From Candidatus Omnitrophota bacterium (GTDB lineage Bacteria; Omnitrophota; Gorgyraeia; Ghiorseimicrobiales; Ghiorseimicrobiaceae), in assembly GCA_030681595.1 (NCBI GenBank), contig JAUXSB010000010.1:1-40598 (forward strand): a stretch of DNA of 40,598 nt. The letters run 5' to 3'. The notes under the pieces are model-generated. The model ran no database searches and was not told the origin of the DNA. It saw nothing but the letters and a program-made list of their open reading frames with translations. The position numbers and the translations under genes are program-made. Below, piece by piece: positions 24,676 to 30,567 of the stretch; position 1 is the first letter of the stretch; each line of letters begins with the position of its first letter.

Positions 24676-24772
24676 ATCCCGCCTCGTAATATGTATCAAA
24701 ATTTTGTTCCATAATTTTGATACACTCAGCGGGATCAATTCGTCCCGAAGCTACGGGGCTCATCGAGAGGAC
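24676..24772 (+). promoter_or_regulatory. Composite double-hairpin leader element, copy 1 (upstream of hisB)
   Basis: ATCCCGC(24676-24682)/GCGGGAT(24729-24735) enclosing TGTATCAAAATT/AATTTTGATACA (24692-24703/24713-24724), then ATCAATTC, CCCG/CGGG hairpin, CTCATCGAGAGG. Confidence 0.75.
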
Positions 24773-24777
24773 AAAAA

Positions 24778-25380
24778 ATGAAAAATAGAGAGTTTATTAT
24801 AGCGCGCAGAACTAACGAGGTTGACATAAACGGAAAATTAGTAATCGATGGCACCGGAAAGACTAAGATAAAGACGGGGTTTGAATCACTCGACCATTTA
24901 TTAACGCTCTTTGCCTTTCATGGATTTTTTGATTTAGAGCTGTCCGCAAAAGGAGACTTAACCCATCATATTCTTGAGGATATTGGAATCGCCTTAGGCG
25001 ATGCTTTTAAGAAAGCATTGGGGGTATCATCAAGCATAAAAAGATACGGCTATGCTTCAGTTCCAATGGATGAAATACTGGCCAAGGTTTCAGTAGATTT
25101 AGGCGGCAGGGATTCTTTTGTATGGCATGGAGTGGCTGGAGTGGTTAATGTTAAAGATAGCTTGGATTTAAATGCCGGCGAATTAAAGTTATTTCTAGGA
25201 TCTATCGCAAAGCATATAAAGATGAATTTATTTATAGAGTATCTTTCGAATGTTGGCGAGATAGACACCCATCATCTTTTTGAGGCAATATTTAAGGCGT
25301 TAGGCATAGCTTTAGACCAAGCCACGCAGATTGATCCGCGCAGGAAGGGTATTCCCTCCACCAAGGGTATAATCGATTAA
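24778..25380 (+). CDS. hisB: Imidazoleglycerol-phosphate dehydratase
   Basis: THHILEDIGIALGDA and DTHHLFEAIFKALG di-histidine metal motifs; his operon. Confidence 0.93.
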   Translation: MKNREFIIARRTNEVDINGKLVIDGTGKTKIKTGFESLDHLLTLFAFHGFFDLELSAKGDLTHHILEDIGIALGDAFKKALGVSSSIKRYGYASVPMDEILAKVSVDLGGRDSFVWHGVAGVVNVKDSLDLNAGELKLFLGSIAKHIKMNLFIEYLSNVGEIDTHHLFEAIFKALGIALDQATQIDPRRKGIPSTKGIID

Positions 25381-25390
25381 ATGAACCCCG

Positions 25391-25426
25391 TTAGAGATAG
25401 TCCCCGCTTTTAGCGGGGACGTCTAA
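25391..25426 (+). other. Nested hairpin in hisB-hisH gap
   Basis: GTCCCCGC-tttta-GCGGGGAC (25400-25420) inside TTAGA/TCTAA. Confidence 0.6.
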
Positions 25427-25465
25427 AATGGATAAATGCTTGAATAGGCTATAGCTTACAGAATT

Positions 25466-27695: not shown

Positions 27696-28061
27696 ATGAA
27701 TAAAAAATGCGGAATGCGGAATGCGGAATGCGGAATTAAAACGAAGAAACTTCCGAAATTAAAATTTGATGATAAAGGGTTGATTCCCGCGATAATTCAG
27801 GATTACAAAACTAAAGAAGTATTGATGGTCGCTTATATGAATAAAGAGTCTGTTAGGCGCACTATAAAATTAGGGAAGACCTGTTTTTGGTCGCGCTCCC
27901 GAAGTGAATATTGGATTAAGGGTAAAACCTCAGGGCATTTTCAATTTGTAAAAAGTATTGCCTATGATTGTGATGCTGATGCGTTGCTGATTAAGGTGCG
28001 CCAGGTAGGCGTTGCCTGCCATACCGGGAATTACTCGTGTTTTTATAGAGAAATTAAATAA
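27696..28061 (+). CDS. hisI: Phosphoribosyl-AMP cyclohydrolase
   Basis: [69 protein letters not shown]. Confidence 0.94.
27708..27735 (+). repeat. (TGCGGAA)x4 tandem repeat at hisI 5' end
   Basis: Four exact 7-bp units. Confidence 0.97.
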
Positions 28062-28068
28062 TTTTTCT

Positions 28069-28138
28069 GATTACACTGATTATAATTCGATTACACCGAT
28101 TAGAATTTGTGTAATCATTTTTAGAAATCAGTGTAATC
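28069..28138 (+). repeat. Nested inverted repeat between hisI and trpE
   Basis: GATTACACTGATT (28069-28081)/AATCAGTGTAATC (28126-28138) enclosing GATTACAC (28089-28096)/GTGTAATC (28109-28116). Confidence 0.85.
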
Positions 28139-28139
28139 T

Positions 28140-29621
28140 GTGTCTATGTATTATCCCAGCGAAACACAATTTATAAAGTTAGCTAAAAAAAATAACCTTA
28201 TTCCGGTTTATAAGGAAATCTTTGCCGATACCGAAACACCGGTATCGGCTTACCTAAAGCTTAAGAAAGAGGGCTGTTCCTATCTATTAGAGTCTATCGA
28301 AGGCACAGAAAAAATAGCCCGTTTTTCTTTTTTGGGGACAAGCCCGTTAGTTATTTTTAAGGCTAAGAAGAATATTGTTTCGGTCGCCGGCTTTGGCGAG
28401 AAGCCCGTGAAAAAAGATTTTACCGCTAGAGAAAACCCTTTAGCAGAATTAAAAAAAATAATTAGTGGTTTTAGCTTTGCTGAAGTAAAAGGCCTCCCGC
28501 GGTTTTCCGGAGGATTTGTCGGTTACTTAGGATACGATATGGTGCGGTTCTTTGAGCCAAAATTAGCCAAGAATAAGATAAGGGATGAGTTAGGGCTGCC
28601 GGATGCATGCTTTATGCTTGCTGAAAATTTGATTATTTTTGACCATGTGCGGCATTGCCTTAAGATTATAATAAATGTGGATTTAAGAACTAAGAACTTA
28701 GAGGCAAGAAGAAGATATAGAGGGGTGGTTAAAAAAATCGAAGAAATAGAAGCAGAATTAAAAACGCCTATTGTTAATTTGCAAAAGACTCATGGTAAGG
28801 CAGCAGTTCAAATTAAGTCCAATATTAAGAAAGCAGATTTTAAGAAGATGGTGCTTAAGGCGAAAGAATATATAAAAAAGGGCGATGTTATTCAGGTAGT
28901 TTTGTCGCAGAGGTTTTCTTCTCCGGTTAAATTTCCACCATTTGATATTTACCGGAATTTGCGTTCAATTAACCCGTCGTCTTATATGTATTATCTTGAT
29001 TTCGGCGATGTTAAACTGGCTGGTTCGTCTCCGGAGATGTTTGTTCGGTGTGAGAACGGTTTGGTTCAGACGCGGCCTATTGCCGGAACGCGCCGGCGCG
29101 GTAAGAATGCCGAAGAGGATGCAAAGCTTTCGCGTAATTTATTGTCTGACGCTAAGGAAAAAGCCGAACATTTAATGCTTGTCGATTTAGGCAGGAATGA
29201 TCTAGGCAGGGTTTGTAAATACGGCACAGTCAGCGTAAATGAGTTTATGAATATTGAGAAATATTCGCATGTTATGCATATCGTTAGCAATGTAAGGGGT
29301 AAATTACGTAAAGATAAAGATGTCTTTGATGTGTTAAGCGCGACTTTTCCCGCGGGTACGGTAACGGGTGCCCCAAAAGTCAGGGCGATGGAGATAATCG
29401 ATGAGCTGGAAAAAGTTTCGCGCGGGCCATACGCCGGGTGTGTAGGTTACTTTAGTTTTTCCGGGAATTTAGATACCTGTATTACTATCAGGACAATCGT
29501 AATAAAGAGAAATACAGTTTATATTCAAGCCGGCGCAGGAATTGTAGCGGATTCTGACCCGGATAAGGAATATCTTGAGACGGTAAGCAAGGCAATGGCG
29601 CAGATAGAAGCGTTAAAGTAA
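28140..29621 (+). CDS. trpE: Anthranilate synthase component I
   Basis: SPEMFVRCENGLVQTRPIAGTRRRG, DLGRNDLGRVCKYG, FPAGTVTGAPKVRAMEIIDELE, QAGAGIVADSDPDKEYLET. Start may be ATG 28146. Confidence 0.95.
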   Translation: MSMYYPSETQFIKLAKKNNLIPVYKEIFADTETPVSAYLKLKKEGCSYLLESIEGTEKIARFSFLGTSPLVIFKAKKNIVSVAGFGEKPVKKDFTARENPLAELKKIISGFSFAEVKGLPRFSGGFVGYLGYDMVRFFEPKLAKNKIRDELGLPDACFMLAENLIIFDHVRHCLKIIINVDLRTKNLEARRRYRGVVKKIEEIEAELKTPIVNLQKTHGKAAVQIKSNIKKADFKKMVLKAKEYIKKGDVIQVVLSQRFSSPVKFPPFDIYRNLRSINPSSYMYYLDFGDVKLAGSSPEMFVRCENGLVQTRPIAGTRRRGKNAEEDAKLSRNLLSDAKEKAEHLMLVDLGRNDLGRVCKYGTVSVNEFMNIEKYSHVMHIVSNVRGKLRKDKDVFDVLSATFPAGTVTGAPKVRAMEIIDELEKVSRGPYAGCVGYFSFSGNLDTCITIRTIVIKRNTVYIQAGAGIVADSDPDKEYLETVSKAMAQIEALK

Positions 29622-29642
29622 AAGTTGATTCGTACACATTTA

Positions 29643-29761
29643 TACCGAAAGCAGAACGCTGTGAAAATTTCTTTGAAATTTTCTTGCAGCTTTCGGTATC
29701 AATTCGCGCACATAATTTACCTCGTCTTTCGGACTCCGTAAATTATGTGCTCATTGAGGAG
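29643..29761 (+). promoter_or_regulatory. Composite double-hairpin leader element, copy 2 (upstream of rpsP)
   Basis: TACCGAAAGC/GCTTTCGGTA (29643-29652/29689-29698) enclosing GAAAATTTC-ttt-GAAATTTTC; ATCAATTC; GCACATAATTTAC/GTAAATTATGTGC (29708-29720/29738-29750); TCATTGAGGAG. Confidence 0.85.
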
Positions 29762-29769
29762 AGAAAAAA

Positions 29770-30012
29770 ATGGCAGTAACGATTAGGTTGTCAAGGCCGG
29801 GTAAATCGGCAAAAAAGAAGATCTTTTTTAGGGTTGGCGTGATGGATGCGAGAAAGGCACGGGATTCGCGCCTTATCGAACAAGTCGGTTATTATGACCC
29901 GAGCAAAAATCCGGCAGTCGTATCTTTAAAAAAAGACAGAATCGATTATTGGGTTTCTAAAGGAGCGACTTTAAGCCCAACGGTAAAAAACTTATTAAAA
30001 AAAGTAAAATAG
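29770..30012 (+). CDS. rpsP: 30S ribosomal protein S16
   Basis: VTIRLSRPGKSAKKKIFFRVGVMDARKARDSRLIEQVGYYDPSKNPA. Confidence 0.95.
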   Translation: MAVTIRLSRPGKSAKKKIFFRVGVMDARKARDSRLIEQVGYYDPSKNPAVVSLKKDRIDYWVSKGATLSPTVKNLLKKVK

Positions 30013-30051
30013 GAAGAAAGGTTAATTCTCCCGCCTAGTGCGGGGTCATTG

Positions 30052-30167
30052 TCCCGATAGTAAAACACTGCGAAAATTTATACTAAATTTTCTTGTAACT
30101 ATCGGGATCAATTCCGGCATATAACTTATGAGCGCTTCGCTCCATAAGTTATACCGTCATTGAGGAG
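30052..30167 (+). promoter_or_regulatory. Composite double-hairpin leader element, copy 3 (upstream of yajC)
   Basis: TCCCGATAGT/ACTATCGGGA (30052-30061/30098-30107) enclosing GAAAATTTA-tac-TAAATTTTC; ATCAATTC; ATAACTTATG...CATAAGTTAT; TCATTGAGGAG. Confidence 0.85.
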
Positions 30168-30173
30168 AAGAAT

Positions 30174-30452
30174 ATGACACAGGCAATGCCAAATCCGCTT
30201 ATGCAGCTTATTCCCTTTATTTTTATTTTTTTAATTTTTTATTTTTTAGTGATTAGGCCTGAAAAAAATAAAACCAAAGAACGGCAGAGAAAAATAGCGG
30301 CATTAAAGAAAAACGATGAAATAGTTACTGCCGGCGGGATTCACGGCACAGTGATAAACGTTAAAGAAAAAACGCTGACAGTAAGAATAGATGATAATAC
30401 TAAGATAGAGATAGATAAAACTGCGGTTGGCAGGATCGAGAAAGTGGCATAA
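30174..30452 (+). CDS. yajC: Preprotein translocase subunit YajC
   Basis: Single TM helix IPFIFIFLIFYFLVIRPEKNKTKERQRKIAALKKNDEIVTAGGIHGTV. Confidence 0.93.
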   Translation: MTQAMPNPLMQLIPFIFIFLIFYFLVIRPEKNKTKERQRKIAALKKNDEIVTAGGIHGTVINVKEKTLTVRIDDNTKIEIDKTAVGRIEKVA

Positions 30453-30542
30453 GCCGGTAAGGCAATGGTTTGGCTTTCCGCTTAGCCAAAGCCATAAGCC
30501 GGTAAGGCAATGGTTTGGCTTTCCGCTTAGCCAAAGCCATAA
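30448..30542 (+). repeat. 45-bp tandem direct repeat (2.1 copies), each unit imperfectly palindromic
   Basis: CATAAGCCGGTAAGGCAATGGTTTGGCTTTCCGCTTAGCCAAAGC at 30448-30492 and 30493-30537, exact. Confidence 0.97.
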
Positions 30543-30567
30543 ACAGGGGAGTTAGAGGAAGGGAGAT

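Follow-up and report, generated by a model that had tools for sequence, protein, structure and literature searches.

The window analysed here, a stretch of 40,598 nucleotides of contig JAUXSB010000010.1 (assembly GCA_030681595.1, Candidatus Omnitrophota bacterium), carries on its forward strand the gene for ribosomal protein S16 (rpsP, 29,770–30,012; TIGR00002, 85.1 bits) and, downstream of it, yajC (30,174–30,452; TIGR00739, 88.9 bits). Both genes are preceded by a leader of the same layout: a first hairpin (H1), in which an asymmetric internal loop separates an outer from an inner stem, precedes a second one (H2) enclosed by TCAATTC and TCATTGA and joined straight to the Shine-Dalgarno (SD) sequence. 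In the rpsP copy, H1 (type A by its sequence, its fold and comparison of type-A copies) spans 29,643–29,698, with outer arms at 29,643–29,652 and 29,689–29,698 and inner arms at 29,663–29,671 and 29,675–29,683. It is followed by H2 (29,699–29,757; TCAAT-TC...TC-ATTGA), which was identified by an exact pattern and by the covariance model R1 described below (77.9 bits), and by the SD AGGAG (29,757–29,761; located by sequence and offset statistics). The yajC copy consists of a type-A H1 (30,052–30,107; sequence, fold and an exact match elsewhere), with outer arms at 30,052–30,061 and 30,098–30,107 and inner arms at 30,072–30,080 and 30,084–30,092, followed by H2 (30,108–30,163; exact pattern; R1, 74.5 bits) and the SD AGGAG (30,163–30,167; sequence). 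The terminal pair of H2 lies at the SD in both leaders, the terminal A of the stem being the first base of AGGAG, and the spacing from SD to ATG is 6–8 nt. On its upstream side, the H1 of yajC adjoins a short H2-like hairpin (TTAATTC-tCCCGCctagtGCGGGg-TCATTG; 30,022–30,051), and this tandem of a short H2-like hairpin and H1 recurs in other copies.

The structure model of H2 contains a 2-nt bulge in the stem and shows strong covariation, and the two leaders fold well below dinucleotide shuffles of their sequences (z = −5.2 and −6.2; 0 of 200 shuffles as good). An earlier note on this DNA, which covered H1 and not the second hairpin that stands 3′ of each H1, had described a near-identical layout of the two leaders with complementary changes in the stems. 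The layout was borne out, both sets of arms being located in the sequence, as were the inner-stem closing pair, C-G in one copy and A-T in the other, and the assignment of the two structured leaders with their paired changes to one family.

A third, diverged copy lies 5′ of hisB (24,778–25,380), where an H1 of type B (24,677–24,734, forward strand; sequence and loop class) is followed by a short H2 (24,735–24,766, forward strand; R1, 18.6 bits, E 0.1). Other repeats occupy neighbouring gaps. A different palindrome (CCCCGTTAGAGAT..) stands immediately 3′ of the hisB stop codon (25,381–25,465), and relatives of this palindrome, with CCCCGTTAGAGA..TCTCTAACGGGG, are found in other parts of the genome (L258). 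The gap between yajC and secDF (30,452–30,567) contains another repeat in tandem, GCCGGTAAGGCAATGGTTTGGCTTTCCGCTTAGCCAAAGCCATAA, similar to a repeat in locus L259. Long palindromes of further families (GATTACACTGATTA, GCGTATAGCG and CCAGATACCAG types) are found at 28,061–28,145 and in other gaps of loci L252–L270; such long palindromes fill many gaps of the studied genome.

The exact pattern of H2 plus SD has 10 copies in the studied genome (G000; 1.94 Mb) and its reversed control none. A search with R1, the covariance model built from those 10 copies, located about 75 distinct copies of H2. Both H1 and H2 are modules with dozens of copies, and they combine into H1-H2 units, tandems and inverted units of the form H2(−)-H1-H2(+). 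Identical stretches of 73–97 nt are found between dispersed copies, the H1 of yajC being part of a stretch of 73 nt that recurs unchanged in a copy on a different contig (C57; L019). A second double-hairpin family (..GGGACTAAGTCCTCG..AGAGGG) has six occurrences in the genome (L006, L029, L033, L038, L054 and also upstream in L019), mostly inside the loop of H1; at L006, L029, L033 and L038 this different double hairpin sits in the inner loop.

R1 matches were obtained in 42 of 59 relatives, with 0–84 copies each (E ≤ 1e-5), and in 45 of 97 genomes across the phylum, including other classes (E ≤ 1e-7); in the latter set, presence differs strongly within families and genera. In a pattern scan of named genomes, almost all matches fell in Omnitrophota, with about 10 of the 80 matches listed lying outside the phylum and about 14 estimated by chance for the pattern. 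Six IMG/VR contigs (L297–L302), which may be viral or misbinned host DNA, also match the H2 plus SD pattern. The genes 3′ of the copies are unrelated and include those for serine hydroxymethyltransferase (glyA), phosphofructokinase (pfkA), release factor 1 (prfA), ribosomal protein L6, a Clp-type ATPase, McsB, HisB and PurH, as well as dapB and dnaK. Autoregulation by a ribosomal protein was rejected because these genes are unrelated, and H2 does not look like an intrinsic terminator, an SD rather than a T run standing 3′ of it.

Placement was assessed for 163 distinct copies drawn from many genomes; 136 of them lie directly 5′ of a start codon. The foot of H2 coincides either with the SD of the gene that follows or with the TAA stop codon of a neighbouring gene: an SD-like motif is found at offset 0–1 from the terminal A of H2 in 117 of the 136 start-side copies, a share that is overestimated because GAGGAG was part of the R1 seeds and of the pattern used for named genomes, and TAA is found in the last 3–4 stem bases of all 14 stop-side copies abutting the end of an antiparallel gene, which were found regardless of that motif. 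At L053, L060, L061, L072 and L074, the element makes up the entire gap between the stop codon and the next start codon or SD.

Turnover of the element was followed at orthologous start codons of the studied genome and a congener, Omnitrophica bacterium GWA2_41_15 isolate Hainich-H51-bin333-1 (G001), using about 440 kb of G000 together with the copy loci, and about 383 kb of G001, regions partly picked for copies; the counts cover the sites listed. Both congeners carry the element at seven of these sites. Both hairpins are kept at one (L035, an acyl-CoA dehydrogenase-like gene), H1 is kept and H2 exchanged at two (dnaK and L024, an Lrp-like regulator), and both hairpins differ at four, including yajC. 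Three further sites have the element in G000 only and six in G001 only; at rplF, G001 has TGATAGATG where G000 holds the whole element between stop and start, and at one more site (L002), an unrelated two-hairpin leader occupies the same position in G001. At dnaK, H2 reads GCCCGCC..GGCGGGC in G000 but GCGCTTATAAGTTAC..GTAACTTATGCGC in G001, and the loops of H1 (ATCGTAGAG in G000, CTCTACGAT in G001) are exact reverse complements, the one clear case of an inverted H1 loop. Among 58 comparable H1 loops, 25 are clearly oriented as in G001 and one clearly in the opposite sense, and the loop CTCTACGAT is shared between genera.

The paired changes in the stems have to be read against this background. 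If selection acted on the transcript, G.U pairs would be expected to exceed A.C pairs, because A.C is what the opposite strand shows for G.U. The stems of 96 well-framed leader copies are nearly perfectly Watson-Crick, with 12 G.U and 10 A.C among 1,632 pairs (framing required at least 14 of 17 Watson-Crick pairs, a filter that lowers both counts and should favour neither), whereas the acceptor stems of 50 tRNAs from the same DNA have 18 G.U and 3 A.C among 350 pairs; the difference in ratio (p = 0.045) and that in G.U rate (p = 2e-7) come from statistics that ignore the relatedness of copies. There is no excess of G.U over A.C, which makes the paired changes resemble the swapping of entire palindromes; compensatory stem changes are also reported to be common in REPINs (PMC3116915). 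The changes that the earlier note had called compensatory are real as paired changes, but their interpretation as compensatory evolution of an RNA leader is not supported, since the copies are dispersed paralogues: the yajC H1 is part of a 73-nt exact match elsewhere, and the changes recur as interchangeable cassettes among the roughly 75 copies.

The rpsP and yajC leaders probably both belong to a composite DNA repeat of two hairpins that is dispersed in Omnitrophota and that spreads and exchanges at the DNA level. The best reading is a new family of composite double-hairpin repeats, similar to REP/BIME/REPIN sequences and to mitochondrial double-hairpin elements (DHE), that sit at gene junctions and are transcribed as leaders; the repeats look mobile and swappable rather than like a gene-specific RNA switch. 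Counting for a DNA repeat are the copy number of about 75, the patchy spread in the phylum, the unrelated genes, the exact matches of 73–97 nt, presence and absence between congeners, H2 exchange, loop inversion, hairpin insertions, the near-equality of G.U and A.C, and the position of SD and TAA at the foot of H2. Counting against it are the lack of transposase linkage, the absence of a definable target-site duplication, and the retention of both hairpins at L035. Of the two hallmarks of a MITE, terminal inverted repeats and a target-site duplication, the H2(−)-H1-H2(+) units have inverted ends, and no duplication could be delimited at the few congeneric empty sites. Copies may arise and exchange via hairpin-forming DNA intermediates, with transposition in trans by some enzyme, template switching during replication and gene conversion as candidate routes. 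They would survive at very short stop-to-start junctions because the ends of the element leave a usable stop codon and SD, and most copies would thereby end up as 5′ leaders of whatever gene follows, with no regulatory role specific to that gene.

Mobilization as a REP sequence by a RAYT is not supported, as no linkage to Y1_Tnp genes was found: R1 copies were near none of them in 18 loci examined in element-bearing genomes. The studied genome has three Y1_Tnp genes, and 48 of the 59 relatives have such genes, the number of which correlates weakly with the number of copies (rho 0.36, a statistic that ignores phylogeny). One relative (G053) has 54 copies of the element and no detected Y1_Tnp, the opposite of the expectation for a repeat driven by a RAYT. 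Two of the genome's own three Y1_Tnp genes have a near-perfect palindrome of their own on both sides (L082, 921–961 and 1,881–1,923; L083, 1,244–1,272 and 1,982–2,016), a REPtron-like arrangement unrelated to the studied element.

A further point against the DNA-repeat reading is that a function could underlie both the precise fusion of the element to SD and stop codons and the recurrence of the loop CTCTACGAT across genera. Guide sequences specify the cleavage sites of IS200/IS605 elements. By extension, the repeats might be phylum-wide, interchangeable hairpin cassettes that mark gene boundaries and are moved and swapped as single-stranded DNA: the TYAAT strand on the 5′ side of H2 would specify the ATTRA site on its 3′ side, the covarying pairs would represent targeting information, and the base of each cassette would be fused to the SD or stop codon. 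This is an unlikely proposal; if true, junction-seeking mobile DNA would reshape translation starts genome-wide.

A function could also lie in the RNA. The H1-H2 5′ UTR could be the leader of a trans-acting regulon, bound by a protein or ligand and controlling dozens of genes through the SD, which would account for the precise SD joining of most start-side copies, the conserved internal-loop and loop motifs, the strong folding and the strong covariation of H2. However, G.U does not exceed A.C, some copies end on stop codons with no SD, the target genes are unrelated and mostly not conserved between congeners, and Rfam contains no family matching the element at gathering score, and none at E ≤ 1 for 29,600–30,200, so that such a regulon is doubtful. 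Quite improbable is a passive translation or stability module, for which selection would keep any hairpin 5′ of the SD, the repeats merely supplying hairpins that would hold the SD open or block 5′ nucleases whatever their sequence. The unrelated yet two-hairpin leader of the congener at L002 and the replacement of the dnaK H2 by a hairpin with the same ends are consistent with such a module, as is the share of gaps with z < −3 (37–49% in G000 and G001 versus 0–24% in three repeat-free relatives, in same-strand gaps of 40–260 nt from regions partly picked for copies), but the congener lacks any hairpin element at several orthologous junctions, and the substitution pattern is strand-symmetric.

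The three-strand RNA switch put forward in the earlier note, in which a 5′ mini-hairpin (AGC-agaac-GCT) would compete with the outer stem of H1, is extremely unlikely and was rejected: the three-base complementarity can be written in the rpsP and yajC copies, but it is not kept in the family, its third pair being broken in about half of the type-A copies with no coupling between arm base and partner (Fisher p = 1.0; 18 type-A H1 copies), and in neither window copy does it pair with a probability above 0.0004, compared with 0.8–1.0 for the neighbouring outer-stem pairs. The mini-hairpin is not a conserved alternative state. The orthologous leaders likewise argue against a switch, as neither rpsP nor yajC has an H1-H2-SD leader in the two other genera of the same family read for these leaders (G002 and G003). 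In the congener, the yajC leader has an H1-H2-SD element with different stems; its rpsP leader (L094) consists of a string of N and then GAGGAGAG, which precludes direct comparison of the orthologues.

If the DNA-repeat reading is right, swappable repeats that include the ribosome-binding site or lie next to it are rewriting the junctions of essential genes such as rpsP, dnaK, prfA and rplF in a large uncultured phylum, which provides a natural experiment on the spread, inversion and tip exchange of DNA palindromes. It would also serve as a warning that paired changes between leaders of one genome are not on their own evidence of an RNA structure, since an exchange of repeats produces an identical pattern; the asymmetry of G.U and A.C is a cheap test that separates the two.

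The repeat family appears undescribed in the literature searched: publications on the phylum combined with riboswitches, palindromic repeats or intergenic hairpins, in a search covering few subscription journals, yielded no such repeat. Like riboswitches and ribosomal-protein leaders, the element forms structure immediately 5′ of the SD (rpsP, yajC and others), but it differs from them in having no Rfam family, no substitution bias toward the transcript strand, and targets that are unrelated; neither a G.U excess nor conservation at orthologous genes was found.

The element also resembles REP, BIME and REPIN sequences, which are short, mostly intergenic palindromes with many copies, inverted pairs and frequent complementary stem changes (PMC3116915; PMC8266576); the copies studied here are likewise many (about 75) and situated in junctions, and the 2-nt bulge of H2 recalls that of E. 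coli REP. REP and REPIN palindromes are 20–50 nt long and have a conserved tetranucleotide on their 5′ side, in most cases GTAG (PMC8266576), whereas the studied element comprises two successive hairpins of about 55–60 nt each. It lacks two REP features: a constant GTAG-like tetranucleotide is absent at the foot of H2, where the 5′ neighbour is the 3′ arm of H1 (GGAG stands 5′ of H1 in some type-A copies only), and RAYT linkage was not found. Mitochondrial DHE and other repetitive hairpin-forming elements are dispersed, in some cases double, intergenic and presumed to move, though how is not known (PMC2800124; also Paquin et al., 2000, as cited in PMC5910586). The studied element resembles them in its two consecutive hairpins, its dispersal and its variability between relatives, a likeness of kind only, and differs from them in its location in a bacterial chromosome and its unrelated sequence. 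Its unusual traits, which set it apart from REP sequences as well, are the joining of its end to an SD or stop codon, a difference from both REP and DHE, and the swapping of its hairpins as modules.
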